Assembly (NCBI RefSeq): GCF_963675395.1
Contig: NZ_OY776223.1
Coordinates: forward strand, 1,054,001 to 1,118,000
DNA: 64,000 bases
Origin: an uncultured Vibrio sp.
Lineage (GTDB): Bacteria; Pseudomonadota; Gammaproteobacteria; Enterobacterales; Vibrionaceae
Reading direction: 5' to 3'
Made by a program: the position numbers and the translations under genes. A model generated the notes under the pieces. The model had not been told where the DNA came from and searched no databases. It saw nothing but the letters and a program-made list of their open reading frames with translations. Position 1 is the stretch's first letter. Each line of letters begins with the position of its first letter. Shown here piece by piece: positions 39,718 to 42,316 of the stretch.

Positions 39718-39794
39718 GGCTACGTAGCTCAGCTGGTTAGAGCACATCACTCATAATGATGGGGTCACAGGTTCGAATCCCGTCGTAGCCACCA
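39718..39794 (+). tRNA. tRNA-Met (CAT), copy 1
   Basis: 77 nt with CCA. The acceptor GGCTACG/CGTAGCC is perfect and the anticodon loop is CTCATAA. The elongator type is inferred from the paired first base and the lack of three GC pairs in the anticodon stem. The four copies in the array are identical. Confidence 0.95.
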
Positions 39795-39832
39795 TTCCTA
39801 AATACTCTTTGAAAGAGTGATTAGGAATAGAT

Positions 39833-39917
39833 GCGGAAGTGGCGGAATTGGTAGACGCACCAGATTTAGGTTCTGGCGCCGCAAGGTGTGAGAGTTCAAG
39901 TCTCTCCTTCCGCACCA
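39833..39917 (+). tRNA. tRNA-Leu (TAG), copy 1
   Basis: 85 nt class II tRNA with a long variable arm and encoded CCA. Acceptor GCGGAAG/CTTCCGC, anticodon loop TTTAGGT. The spacer before it folds as a nested hairpin (ATTCCTAA/TTAGGAAT outside, ACTCTTT/AAAGAGT inside). Confidence 0.96.
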
Positions 39918-39948
39918 TATTTTAAGTAGTTTTAAGACTACTGCCTGC

Positions 39949-40023
39949 AGGTCTATCGCCAAGCGGTAAGGCAGCGGCTTTTGATGCCGCCATTCCCTGG
40001 TTCGAATCCAGGTAGACCTGCCA
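39949..40023 (+). tRNA. tRNA-Gln (TTG), copy 1
   Basis: 75 nt. Acceptor AGGTCTA/TAGACCT, anticodon loop TTTTGAT. It belongs to the T-A subtype at acceptor pair 4, shared only with copy 2. Confidence 0.95.
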
Positions 40024-40101
40024 CTATTCAAAGTGGAGATTCCTTGATAAAGGGGTTGTCACTTAGAGCGCGAAGGTTTATATTGTCTCGCTCAAAAAGA
40101 T

Positions 40102-40178
40102 GGCTACGTAGCTCAGCTGGTTAGAGCACATCACTCATAATGATGGGGTCACAGGTTCGAATCCCGTCGTAGCCACCA
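40102..40178 (+). tRNA. tRNA-Met (CAT), copy 2
   Basis: 77 nt, identical to copy 1. The following spacer carries a TTCTTTC/GAAAGAA hairpin. Confidence 0.95.
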
Positions 40179-40220
40179 TTCTTTCTTTTTGAAAGAACTA
40201 TCTTTGTGATAAAGAAAAAC

Positions 40221-40252
40221 AACTGTTAGTTTTTACCAATTAACTGATGGTT
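40221..40252 (+). repeat. TTTACCAATT-loop spacer hairpin, copy 1
   Basis: 32 nt: stem AACTGTTAGTT/AACTGATGGTT (11 pairs, three of them G-T) around the loop TTTACCAATT. It ends 15 nt before tRNA-Leu copy 2. The stem sequence is unlike that of copies 2, 3, 5 and 6 while the loop is the same. Confidence 0.7.
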
Positions 40253-40267
40253 TATAGAGTTCAAGAC

Positions 40268-40352
40268 GCGGAAGTGGCGGAATTGGTAGACGCACCAGAT
40301 TTAGGTTCTGGCGCCGCAAGGTGTGAGAGTTCAAGTCTCTCCTTCCGCACCA
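40268..40352 (+). tRNA. tRNA-Leu (TAG), copy 2
   Basis: 85 nt, identical to copy 1. Confidence 0.96.
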
Positions 40353-40381
40353 TCTTGGTTTAACTCTATTGAAGAATATAT

Positions 40382-40466
40382 GCGGAAATGGCGGAATTGG
40401 TAGACGCACCAGATTTAGGTTCTGGCGCCGCAAGGTGTGAGAGTTCAAGTCTCTCTTTCCGCACCA
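40382..40466 (+). tRNA. tRNA-Leu (TAG), copy 3, acceptor variant
   Basis: 85 nt. The acceptor is GCGGAAA/TTTCCGC: the seventh pair has changed from G-C to A-T on both strands, keeping it paired. All other bases match copy 1. Confidence 0.95.
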
Positions 40467-40497
40467 TATTTTAAGTAGTTGTAAGACTACTGCCTGC

Positions 40498-40572
40498 AGG
40501 TCTATCGCCAAGCGGTAAGGCAGCGGCTTTTGATGCCGCCATTCCCTGGTTCGAATCCAGGTAGACCTGCCA
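40498..40572 (+). tRNA. tRNA-Gln (TTG), copy 2
   Basis: 75 nt, acceptor AGGTCTA/TAGACCT as in copy 1. The spacer before it has the AGTAGT-N6-ACTACT hairpin. Confidence 0.95.
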
Positions 40573-40605
40573 CTATTTTAATTATTGATTTTACTCAGTA
40601 ATTAT

Positions 40606-40690
40606 GCGGAAGTGGCGGAATTGGTAGACGCACCAGATTTAGGTTCTGGCGCCGTAAGGTGTGAGAGTTCAAGTCTCTCCTTCCGCACCA
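40606..40690 (+). tRNA. tRNA-Leu (TAG), copy 4
   Basis: 85 nt, with T instead of C in the variable arm (GCGCCGTAAGG). The spacer before it forms a 10-pair hairpin TAATTATTGA/TCAGTAATTA. Confidence 0.95.
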
Positions 40691-40721
40691 TATTTTAAGT
40701 AGTTACAAGACTACTAGCTGT

Positions 40722-40796
40722 AGGGCTATCGCCAAGCGGTAAGGCAGCGGCTTTTGATGCCGCCATTCCCTGGTTCGAATCCAGGTAGCCCTGCCA
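40722..40796 (+). tRNA. tRNA-Gln (TTG), copy 3
   Basis: 75 nt with the second acceptor subtype AGGGCTA/TAGCCCT (G-C at pair 4). Confidence 0.95.
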
Positions 40797-40824
40797 TTAT
40801 TTATTCCTTGAAATATAGGAAAAC

Positions 40825-40856
40825 GATATTGAGATTTTACCAATTATCTTGATATC
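40825..40856 (+). repeat. TTTACCAATT-loop spacer hairpin, copy 2
   Basis: 32 nt: stem GATATTGAGAT/ATCTTGATATC (11 pairs, two G-T) around TTTACCAATT, ending 13 nt before tRNA-Leu copy 5. Confidence 0.72.
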
Positions 40857-40869
40857 TATAGATTAAGTT

Positions 40870-40954
40870 GCGGAAGTGGCGGAATTGGTAGACGCACCAG
40901 ATTTAGGTTCTGGCGCCGCAAGGTGTGAGAGTTCAAGTCTCTCCTTCCGCACCA
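40870..40954 (+). tRNA. tRNA-Leu (TAG), copy 5
   Basis: 85 nt, identical to copy 1. Confidence 0.96.
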
Positions 40955-40995
40955 TTCTTTCTTTTAGAAAGACATAGTCTTAGGACTATACCTGT

Positions 40996-41070
40996 AGGGC
41001 TATCGCCAAGCGGTAAGGCAGCGGCTTTTGATGCCGCCATTCCCTGGTTCGAATCCAGGTAGCCCTGCCA
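40996..41070 (+). tRNA. tRNA-Gln (TTG), copy 4
   Basis: 75 nt, subtype AGGGCTA/TAGCCCT. The spacer before it has hairpins TCTTTC/GAAAGA and ATAGTC/GACTAT. Confidence 0.95.
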
Positions 41071-41078
41071 TACAAAAT

Positions 41079-41110
41079 GATATTGAGATTTTACCAATTA
41101 TCTTGATATC
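41079..41110 (+). repeat. TTTACCAATT-loop spacer hairpin, copy 3
   Basis: 32 nt, same sequence as copy 2, ending 13 nt before tRNA-Leu copy 6. Confidence 0.72.
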
Positions 41111-41123
41111 TAAAAATCAAGAT

Positions 41124-41208
41124 GCGGAAGTGGCGGAATTGGTAGACGCACCAGATTTAGGTTCTGGCGCCGCAAGGTGTGAGAGTTCAAGTCTCTCCTT
41201 CCGCACCA
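41124..41208 (+). tRNA. tRNA-Leu (TAG), copy 6
   Basis: 85 nt, identical to copy 1. Confidence 0.96.
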
Positions 41209-41231
41209 TTCTTGATTAAATAATTTGAGTT

Positions 41232-41308
41232 GGCTACGTAGCTCAGCTGGTTAGAGCACATCACTCATAATGATGGGGTCACAGGTTCGAATCCCGTCGT
41301 AGCCACCA
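41232..41308 (+). tRNA. tRNA-Met (CAT), copy 3
   Basis: 77 nt, identical to copy 1. Confidence 0.95.
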
Positions 41309-41316
41309 TTTACAAC

Positions 41317-41348
41317 GTTATTTAGGTTTTACCAATTACCTTTATAAC
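41317..41348 (+). repeat. TTTACCAATT-loop spacer hairpin, copy 4
   Basis: 32 nt: a third stem type, GTTATTTAGGT/ACCTTTATAAC, with nine of 11 positions paired and two T-T mismatches, around the same loop. It ends 13 nt before tRNA-Leu copy 7. Confidence 0.68.
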
Positions 41349-41361
41349 TAAAGAATAAGTT

Positions 41362-41446
41362 GCGGAAGTGGCGGAATTGGTAGACGCACCAGATTTAGGT
41401 TCTGGCGCCGCAAGGTGTGAGAGTTCAAGTCTCTCCTTCCGCACCA
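41362..41446 (+). tRNA. tRNA-Leu (TAG), copy 7
   Basis: 85 nt, identical to copy 1. Confidence 0.96.
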
Positions 41447-41483
41447 TTTATTCATAATAAGTAGTTTTTGACTATTTATTTGT

Positions 41484-41558
41484 AGGGCTATCGCCAAGCG
41501 GTAAGGCAGCGGCTTTTGATGCCGCCATTCCCTGGTTCGAATCCAGGTAGCCCTGCCA
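41484..41558 (+). tRNA. tRNA-Gln (TTG), copy 5
   Basis: 75 nt, subtype AGGGCTA/TAGCCCT. The spacer before it forms AATAAGTAGT/ACTATTTATT (ten pairs, one G-T). Confidence 0.95.
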
Positions 41559-41566
41559 TACACAAC

Positions 41567-41598
41567 GATATTGAGATTTTACCAATTATCTGAATATC
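41567..41598 (+). repeat. TTTACCAATT-loop spacer hairpin, copy 5
   Basis: 32 nt: stem GATATTGAGAT/ATCTGAATATC, ten of 11 positions paired, same loop, ending 13 nt before tRNA-Leu copy 8. Confidence 0.7.
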
Positions 41599-41611
41599 TA
41601 AAGATCAAGAT

Positions 41612-41696
41612 GCGGAAGTGGCGGAATTGGTAGACGCACCAGATTTAGGTTCTGGCGCCGTAAGGTGTGAGAGTTCAAGTCTCTCCTTCCGCACCA
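41612..41696 (+). tRNA. tRNA-Leu (TAG), copy 8
   Basis: 85 nt, with the variable-arm T as in copy 4. Confidence 0.96.
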
Positions 41697-41720
41697 TTCT
41701 TTATTTAAACAATTTGAGAT

Positions 41721-41797
41721 GGCTACGTAGCTCAGCTGGTTAGAGCACATCACTCATAATGATGGGGTCACAGGTTCGAATCCCGTCGTAGCCACCA
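41721..41797 (+). tRNA. tRNA-Met (CAT), copy 4
   Basis: 77 nt, identical to copy 1. Confidence 0.95.
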
Positions 41798-41843
41798 TTG
41801 ATTAGATTGCTAGCTTGAGCTAACAGTCATGTAGATTTAAGAT

Positions 41844-41928
41844 GCGGAAGTGGCGGAATTGGTAGACGCACCAGATTTAGGTTCTGGCGCCGCAAGGTGT
41901 GAGAGTTCAAGTCTCTCCTTCCGCACCA
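41844..41928 (+). tRNA. tRNA-Leu (TAG), copy 9
   Basis: 85 nt, identical to copy 1. Confidence 0.96.
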
Positions 41929-41957
41929 TCTTAAACTCATCTACAATATCAAAATAT

Positions 41958-42042
41958 GCGGAAGTGGCGGAATTGGTAGACGCACCAGATTTAGGTTCTG
42001 GCGCCGTAAGGTGTGAGAGTTCAAGTCTCTCCTTCCGCACCA
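41958..42042 (+). tRNA. tRNA-Leu (TAG), copy 10
   Basis: 85 nt, variable-arm T as in copies 4 and 8. It directly follows copy 9 with a 29-nt spacer. Confidence 0.96.
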
Positions 42043-42084
42043 TTCTTTCCTTAGAGAAAGATCATAGTCTTAGACTATACTTGT

Positions 42085-42159
42085 AGGGCTATCGCCAAGC
42101 GGTAAGGCAGCGGCTTTTGATGCCGCCATTCCCTGGTTCGAATCCAGGTAGCCCTGCCA
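42085..42159 (+). tRNA. tRNA-Gln (TTG), copy 6
   Basis: 75 nt, subtype AGGGCTA/TAGCCCT. The spacer before it has hairpins TCTTTC/GAAAGA and ATAGTCT/AGACTAT. Confidence 0.95.
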
Positions 42160-42186
42160 ATATTTTGCCTTGAAATACAGGAAAAC

Positions 42187-42218
42187 GATATTGAGATTTT
42201 ACCAATTATCTTGATATC
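42187..42218 (+). repeat. TTTACCAATT-loop spacer hairpin, copy 6
   Basis: 32 nt, same sequence as copies 2 and 3, ending 13 nt before tRNA-Leu copy 11. Confidence 0.72.
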
Positions 42219-42231
42219 TACAGATTAAGTT

Positions 42232-42316
42232 GCGGAAGTGGCGGAATTGGTAGACGCACCAGATTTAGGTTCTGGCGCCGCAAGGTGTGAGAGTTCAAGT
42301 CTCTCCTTCCGCACCA
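42232..42316 (+). tRNA. tRNA-Leu (TAG), copy 11
   Basis: 85 nt, identical to copy 1. It is the last gene of the array, directly before the terminator. Confidence 0.96.

Follow-up and report, generated by a model that had tools for sequence, protein, structure and literature searches.

A leader hairpin with a loop complementary to the tRNA-Leu D-loop in a Vibrio tRNA array, a candidate kissing element in pre-tRNA maturation

Kissing loops join two RNA loops through helices of about six pairs, and in the T-box system an RNA hairpin engages the elbow region of a tRNA. Pairing functions are also met in the spacers of tRNA operons, where the external transcribed spacer of the Escherichia coli leuZ precursor is a known sponge RNA. 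In the polycistronic valVW precursor of E. coli, a stem-loop in the 5′ leader is reported to inhibit ribonuclease P (RNase P) and to enforce a directional order of cleavage, and base pairing between a 5′ leader and the 3′ RCCA end likewise hinders the enzyme (PMC9433436, available text). The D-loop and T-loop are joined by the G19-C56 pair, which in the structure of E. coli RNase P stacks on the S-domain of the enzyme (PMC9433436, same text). RNase E acting on tRNA precursors is stimulated by neighbouring structured elements, and simple stem-loops can replace a tRNA (PMC9841416, available text). Here we describe six hairpins within a tRNA array of an uncultured Vibrio sp., found in a stretch of 64,000 nucleotides of contig NZ_OY776223.1 (the window), each of which precedes a tRNA-Leu(UAG) gene and has in its loop a complement to that tRNA's D-loop. 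As an overall explanation, to which we give even chances, the hairpins would kiss this D-loop in cis and gate or order the action of RNase P.

The comparison with described systems brings out likenesses and differences. Complementary loops with about six or more contiguous pairs, as in a kissing interaction, are present in sequence, and as in the T-box a hairpin would engage the elbow of a tRNA; the Vibrio hairpins lack a specifier, an antiterminator or a regulated mRNA, and their partner would be a pre-tRNA of the same transcript. A T-box riboswitch was also rejected on the position of the hairpins, between tRNA genes, and on the absence of a T-box match in the Rfam scan of the window. The leuZ sponge shares the pairing function of a tRNA-operon spacer, but acts on small RNAs in trans, whereas the complement of the Vibrio loop is the neighbouring tRNA. 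Like the valVW element, the hairpins are stable stem-loops in the 5′ leaders of tRNAs of a polycistronic precursor, although the available text of PMC9433436 mentions no conserved or tRNA-complementary loop for valVW. The pairing of 5′ leader with 3′ RCCA described there extends the acceptor stem, whereas here the loop would pair with the D-loop over a linker of 13-15 nt. Open-licence papers, searched by titles and the starts of abstracts, yielded no fitting account of a kissing loop or leader hairpin acting on a tRNA D-loop, nor of hairpins within the tRNA operons of Vibrio. Structured pre-tRNA leaders are already known, and there is a real chance that this hairpin forms a class of its own.

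Six hairpins and their complementarity to the D-loop

The array holds 21 tRNA genes (4 Met, 11 Leu(UAG) and 6 Gln) on the forward strand. Six hairpins of 32 nt lie on this strand, each in the spacer 5′ of a tRNA-Leu(UAG) gene, and their loop sequence, TTTACCAATT, has six exact copies in the window, all of them within these hairpins. They end 15, 13, 13, 13, 13 and 13 nt, in order, before genes that begin at 40268, 40870, 41124, 41362, 41612 and 42232. Their 5′ arms are of three distinct sequences; four hairpins are fully paired, the one at 41567 has one mismatch and the one at 41317 a 2x2 internal loop. Folded singly, the six reach minimum free energies of -7.8 to -9.6 kcal/mol, with z-scores of -2.4 to -5.2. 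A preliminary description of this DNA had reported the six elements on three stem sequences that pair with few mismatches, and each is present where it was placed. Its observation was right but overlooked the main clue, namely the complementarity between the loop and the following tRNA's D-loop. The positions are:

39718..42316, + strand: tRNA array of 21 genes, with the element at 6 of 11 Leu genes
40221..40252, + strand: leader hairpin 1, loop TTTACCAATT at 40232-40241, 5′ of the tRNA-Leu at 40268
40825..40856, + strand: leader hairpin 2, loop at 40836-40845, 5′ of the tRNA-Leu at 40870
41079..41110, + strand: leader hairpin 3, loop at 41090-41099, 5′ of the tRNA-Leu at 41124
41317..41348, + strand: leader hairpin 4, loop at 41328-41337, 5′ of the tRNA-Leu at 41362
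41567..41598, + strand: leader hairpin 5, loop at 41578-41587, 5′ of the tRNA-Leu at 41612
42187..42218, + strand: leader hairpin 6, loop at 42198-42207, 5′ of the tRNA-Leu at 42232
40280..40290, + strand: D-loop GAATTGGTAGA, proposed partner of hairpin 1 (TCTACCAATT on the minus strand at 40281-40290)
40882..40892, + strand: D-loop of the tRNA-Leu following hairpin 2
41136..41146, + strand: D-loop of the tRNA-Leu following hairpin 3
41374..41384, + strand: D-loop of the tRNA-Leu following hairpin 4
41624..41634, + strand: D-loop of the tRNA-Leu following hairpin 5
42244..42254, + strand: D-loop of the tRNA-Leu following hairpin 6

As RNA, the loop reads UUUACCAAUU, the reverse complement of AAUUGGUAGA in the tRNA-Leu D-loop, with which it forms 10 pairs, one of them G-U. 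The segment AAUUGGUAGA makes up 10 of the 11 nucleotides of this D-loop, which is closed by the D stem GCG/CGC. Allowing one mismatch raises the matches to TTTACCAATT in the window to 23, where 6.9 are expected; the D-loops of the 11 tRNA-Leu, on the opposite strand, account for 11 of them. The calculated duplex energy of the loop is -9.0 kcal/mol with the Leu D-loop, compared to -4.8 with the Gln D-loop and -4.0 with the Met D-loop, and a second site within 3 kcal/mol was not found in tRNA-Leu.

The specificity for tRNA-Leu is also seen in related arrays. In a motif-free count of 6-mers in folded spacer loops, ACCAAT, the core of the element, came out on top for Leu, with 282 of the 422 spacers that have a hairpin, while the best loop 6-mer reached 18/182 before Gln and 28/120 before Met. 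ACCAAT itself was found in none of 245 distinct spacers before Gln and none of 249 before Met. Watson-Crick runs of at least six between a spacer loop and its own D-loop are formed by 318 of 400 distinct Leu spacers, a fraction that describes positive arrays, as most loci were fetched for holding ACCAAT; the corresponding counts are 0/139 for Gln, 0/94 for Met and 0/81 for the leaders of other tRNAs. Pairing between loop and D-loop is well supported by sequence, and we consider it probable that this pairing is selected; its formation in cells and its consequence for the precursor are inferred.

Covariation in the stem and variation in the loop

The preliminary description had read the constant loop on changing stems as selection on an RNA structure, and strong covariation in the stem bears this out. 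Among 242 distinct hairpins, whose 5′ arms have a mean identity of 38%, the ten inner stem positions form on average 9.17 pairs, compared to 7.04 when the 3′ arms are redealt (50 deals, maximum 7.19). In the commonest geometry (118 hairpins), several standard pair types occur at every stem position. From a pick of 41 hairpins with differing arms, six of another register were dropped (L032 and L034, two each, L133 and L190) and one window hairpin was added, giving an alignment of 36. Its cells are paired in 93.2% of cases compared to 60.6% after shuffling, a percentage that leans high, as rows were chosen for the presence of ACCAAT and at least 9 of 11 pairs. The covariation score is 0.916 against 0.273 for shuffled alignments, with none of 500 shuffles as high, and slid versions of the alignment reach at most 0.25. 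Two-sided changes are seen at all 11 pairs, and these are not a product of the way the hairpins were selected.

A covariance model built from the 36 rows, three of which come from this genome, was searched against the genome at E<=1, and among the best 150 of 2935 candidates it recovered exactly the six window hairpins. Weak matches occur elsewhere in relatives, non-Vibrio genomes included, down to E=0.002. A scan of the window with Rfam 15 at curated thresholds gave 23 matches, all of them tRNA, and left the hairpins uncovered by any family. The preliminary description's remark that it knew of no described family that fits holds for Rfam at gathering thresholds.

The loop is less uniform in relatives than in the window. 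Of 43 distinct hairpins with a loop one substitution away from ACCAAT (one of which, ACTAAT in L089, probably comes from a different hairpin), 40 keep at least six contiguous pairs with their own D-loop, counting Watson-Crick and G-U pairs. Random substitution in ACCAAT loops predicts that 57% would do so without transition bias and 82% with a strong bias, and the 43 variants comprise 29 transversions and 14 transitions. Pairing is retained through G-U pairs or through a shift of register. TCCAAT, the variant met most often, has one pair fewer and mostly continues with a T, so that the loop can pair in the CCAATT register; six pairs are kept by 22 of 25 such loops, whereas imposing this change on ACCAAT loops keeps them in 104 of 196 (Fisher p=0.0009, uncorrected for relatedness). 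Where the D-loop reads GAAUUGG, some of these loops read CCAAUUC (L008, L029, L181, L192), and where it reads AAAUUGG, the four of genome G023 read CCAAUUU. The invariant loop of the preliminary description therefore holds in the window and gives way in relatives to G-U-compatible variants, shifted registers and lineages that lack the loop.

Distribution and genomic setting

The exact loop stands at the equivalent place in 9 of 41 relatives. The core ACCAAT lies upstream of tRNA-Leu(UAG) in 116 of 196 Vibrio genomes, where a reversed control pattern gave 0. Together with a renewed look at 30 of the 80 Vibrio genomes with no match, this is the less biased figure; 24 of the 30 gave tRNA-Leu loci, and on a reading of their spacers 11 of these have ACCAAT or a compatible variant. 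In an order-level sample covering 99 genera, ACCAAT was found in 16 of 295 genomes, all Vibrio. The 80 listed of 91 stretches from a named collection belong, but for three single matches outside the family, to Vibrio species, Aliivibrio fischeri, three Photobacterium records (one of them an artefact) and one Vibrionaceae bacterium. Outside Vibrionaceae, no match among those listed is accompanied by an array, and the three single matches there (L203, L217, L218), isolated and without an array, were judged to be chance.

Within the family, the same core is carried on quite different stems in Photobacterium (L145, L215, of which L309 is apparently a repeat, and L304), in Aliivibrio (L153 and L308) and in one further genus (L307), the genus of L304 and L308 being inferred. 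A family-level tally gave 47 of 150 genomes and 4 of 13 genera, part of which is artefact: in some matches (L303, L305, L306, L310) the preceding tRNA supplies the ACCA with its 3′ end, and the spacer begins with the AT. In the earlier set, the core could be mimicked in this way in 1 of 580 distinct spacers before Leu(UAG) (L221). The spacing is also variable. The preliminary description had proposed a fixed distance to the tRNA, which holds in the window but not beyond it. Among 294 distinct ACCAAT spacers, 209 leave 24-26 nt between the end of the core and the tRNA, and 45 leave 40-61 nt, some of the latter with an additional hairpin in this interval.

A second isoacceptor offers a further comparison. 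Some Photobacterium-like genomes have tRNA-Leu(CAG) in the same array, with a D-loop identical to that of Leu(UAG), and some of its leader hairpins have loops with UUACCA, UUACCAA, CUACCAA or CUGCCAA, which are complementary to the D-loop in another register (L303, L305, L306, L310). The matching pattern was found in 7 of 50 genomes of a Photobacterium-like genus. This evidence is supporting, not strong.

Several other features of these arrays were noted. The array in the window adjoins an open reading frame that we read, by eye, as ubiF, followed by one read as miaB; in E. coli, ubiF adjoins the metT-leuW-gln operon, whose metT-leuW spacer of 9 nt has no hairpin. The first Met-Leu spacer of the window (39795-39832) holds a different hairpin (TTCCTAA...TTAGGAA), which many relatives share and whose loop varies among them. 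Where two Leu genes stand in tandem, the first tRNA has a leader and a trailer that look complementary by eye, as though extending the acceptor stem (41831-41843 with 41929-41944, and also L006). A promoter-like TTGTCA/TATATT pair is visible inside the array in the Gln-Met spacer at 40024-40101, and a similar stretch occurs in L002 (by eye). Decayed copies of tRNA-Gln lie in the spacers of several relatives (L001, L005, L006, L108), and L108 contains a chimera of Leu and Met tRNA, by its look a product of recombination. Finally, in species whose equivalent hairpins seem to have GNRA-like loops (L273, L276, L277 and L281, of genomes G071, G074, G078 and G050 in this order), the D-loop of tRNA-Leu(UAG) reads AAATTGG by eye.

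Proposed mechanism and alternative explanations

The D-loop guanines G18 and G19 (standard numbering) normally dock on the T-loop. We propose that each element is a leader hairpin of pre-tRNA-Leu whose 10-nt loop would kiss the D-loop of the following tRNA-Leu, the helix being that of UUUACCAAUU with AAUUGGUAGA in the window and, across the family, one with about six contiguous pairs at its core. Both docking guanines would be occupied by this pairing, and the pre-tRNA would therefore lack its D/T-loop elbow for as long as the hairpin is neither removed nor displaced. In an array of near-identical tRNAs, such an elbow-less state would delay RNase P or set the order in which it cleaves. A delay of RNase P in cis is proposed because the enzyme reads the G19-C56 pair and because the valVW leader stem-loop orders cleavage. 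The differing loops of some lineages, and those before Leu(CAG) in a few Photobacterium, may be separate routes to the same D-loop. We lean towards an action of the pairing in cis; that it gates RNase P is a prediction we hold more tentatively, at somewhat under even chances.

A number of observations weigh against this proposal or limit it. Five of the 11 tRNA-Leu in the window lack the element and have different spacers, so it is not needed for every tRNA. No complementary loop was found in the fetched spacers of 13 of the 24 re-examined genomes (five of which gave a single tRNA-Leu), and in four of those 13 (G050, G071, G074, G078) the equivalent hairpin has, by eye, a GNRA-like loop (GCAA, GTAA or GAAA). 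Duplication has made the spacers of an array relatives of one another, and counts made on them are not independent. Of 400 Leu spacers, 13 have loops that reach at least six pairs with the Met D-loop, and 1 has a loop that does so with the Gln D-loop. ACCAAT is also present in 2 of 7 leaders of tRNA-Asp, one example of which lies in a spacer after a 5S rRNA-like stretch and has no loop that pairs with its D-loop. Most Leu(CAG) leaders are without a match, as six pairs are reached by 10 of 47 distinct spacers with G-U and by 3 of 47 with Watson-Crick pairs alone, and two of the ten (L181, L292) look like chance. If a strong transition bias is assumed, the test of the loop variants gives p=0.03 only. 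The D-loop hardly varies, which confines two-sided covariation of loop and D-loop to one position and one genome, and L183, which also has the D-loop AAAUUGG, has a CCAAUUA loop. The recurrent variant loop AAACCATAA (22 copies, 17 of them one identical spacer; L092, L094, L100, L105, L107) forms only four pairs with the Leu D-loop and does slightly better with that of Met. The element is accordingly a conserved option rather than a requirement.

The nearest alternative keeps the cis pairing and changes its purpose: the hairpin could guard folding, keeping the D-loop out of wrong pairings, be it with other copies or while the T-arm is yet to be transcribed. All the pairing evidence fits this equally, and the array has 11 near-identical copies of tRNA-Leu that could mispair. 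The first Leu of an array, though, often lacks the element while facing the same risk, and the second Leu of Leu-Leu tandems mostly does so too (ACCAAT in 5 of 51 distinct spacers after tRNA-Leu(UAG)), which leaves a folding guard unlikely, if the least so of the alternatives. An action in trans, where the loop serves as a sensor or sponge for tRNA-Leu or some other RNA, either within the precursor or after release in a spacer fragment, has the leuZ type of spacer sponge as a precedent, and an array would yield several copies. The absence of ACCAAT before Gln and Met of the same transcripts speaks against it, as does the mature tRNA, in which the D-loop is modified and docked. A link to the Qrr small RNAs (family RF00378), the ones compared here, came from ACAACGTC, which stands at the 5′ base of the stem in 47 of 269 flanks (e.g., L102, L113) and is complementary to GACGUUGU of Qrr, possibly by chance; as evidence for a Qrr sponge the match is not general, and AUUGGU is absent from all four Qrr genes of the genome itself, where the comparison was made. 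We regard trans action as improbable.

Similarly doubtful is a landmark role, in which a protein reads the hairpin or the hairpin aids RNase E and the likeness to the D-loop is coincidental. The stimulation of RNase E by structured neighbours on tRNA precursors (PMC9841416, available text) would suit it, and the GNRA-like loops that replace the complementary one in some lineages suggest that the stem may serve some purpose by itself. A landmark role leaves unexplained the register shifts and the 40 of 43 variants that keep pairing, so that reading the loop as a protein site or as chance is disfavoured by the variant test; by arithmetic, the chance that a given 6-mer matches one of the six D-loop hexamers is about 6/4096, and for a match to any tRNA hexamer it is about 2%. 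Most loops hold ACCA or GCCA, and RNase P captures the 3′ RCCA through its L15 loop (PMC9433436, available text), which raises the idea that the loop imitates a tRNA 3′ end and binds L15. This idea accounts neither for the conserved AAT nor for the 25 distinct TCCAAT and 5 ATCAAT loops nor for placement at Leu only, and the RNase P RNA of the genome lacks AUUGGU (neither ATTGGT nor its complement is in that stretch); we think it very improbable. Equally hard to credit is descent alone, in which one ancestral spacer was spread through duplication of the array without selection. Arrays clearly expand by duplication and many spacers are repeated, but the stems have diverged to the low identity given above and still pair around a constant core, while the Gln hairpins of the same arrays share no common loop.

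A hairpin that kisses the D-loop in cis would represent a new class of cis-acting element, in which a leader hairpin locks the pre-tRNA in an inactive state and its removal licenses maturation; we put this forward as a possibility, slightly less firmly than the gating itself. That a loop is kept across related species while its stem varies almost freely suggests an undescribed control element in tRNA production. The spacers between tRNA genes are usually deemed disposable, and a hairpin conserved through much of a bacterial family, with a loop that tracks the D-loop of its own tRNA, suggests otherwise. Conserved loops 5′ of tRNA genes merit comparison with the tRNA itself. With two short complementary loops in one transcript, these arrays provide a directly testable case for how long tRNA arrays are processed in order. 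If the proposal is true, the tRNA precursor of these bacteria would come with a lock already built in for its elbow, the very feature that RNase P reads.

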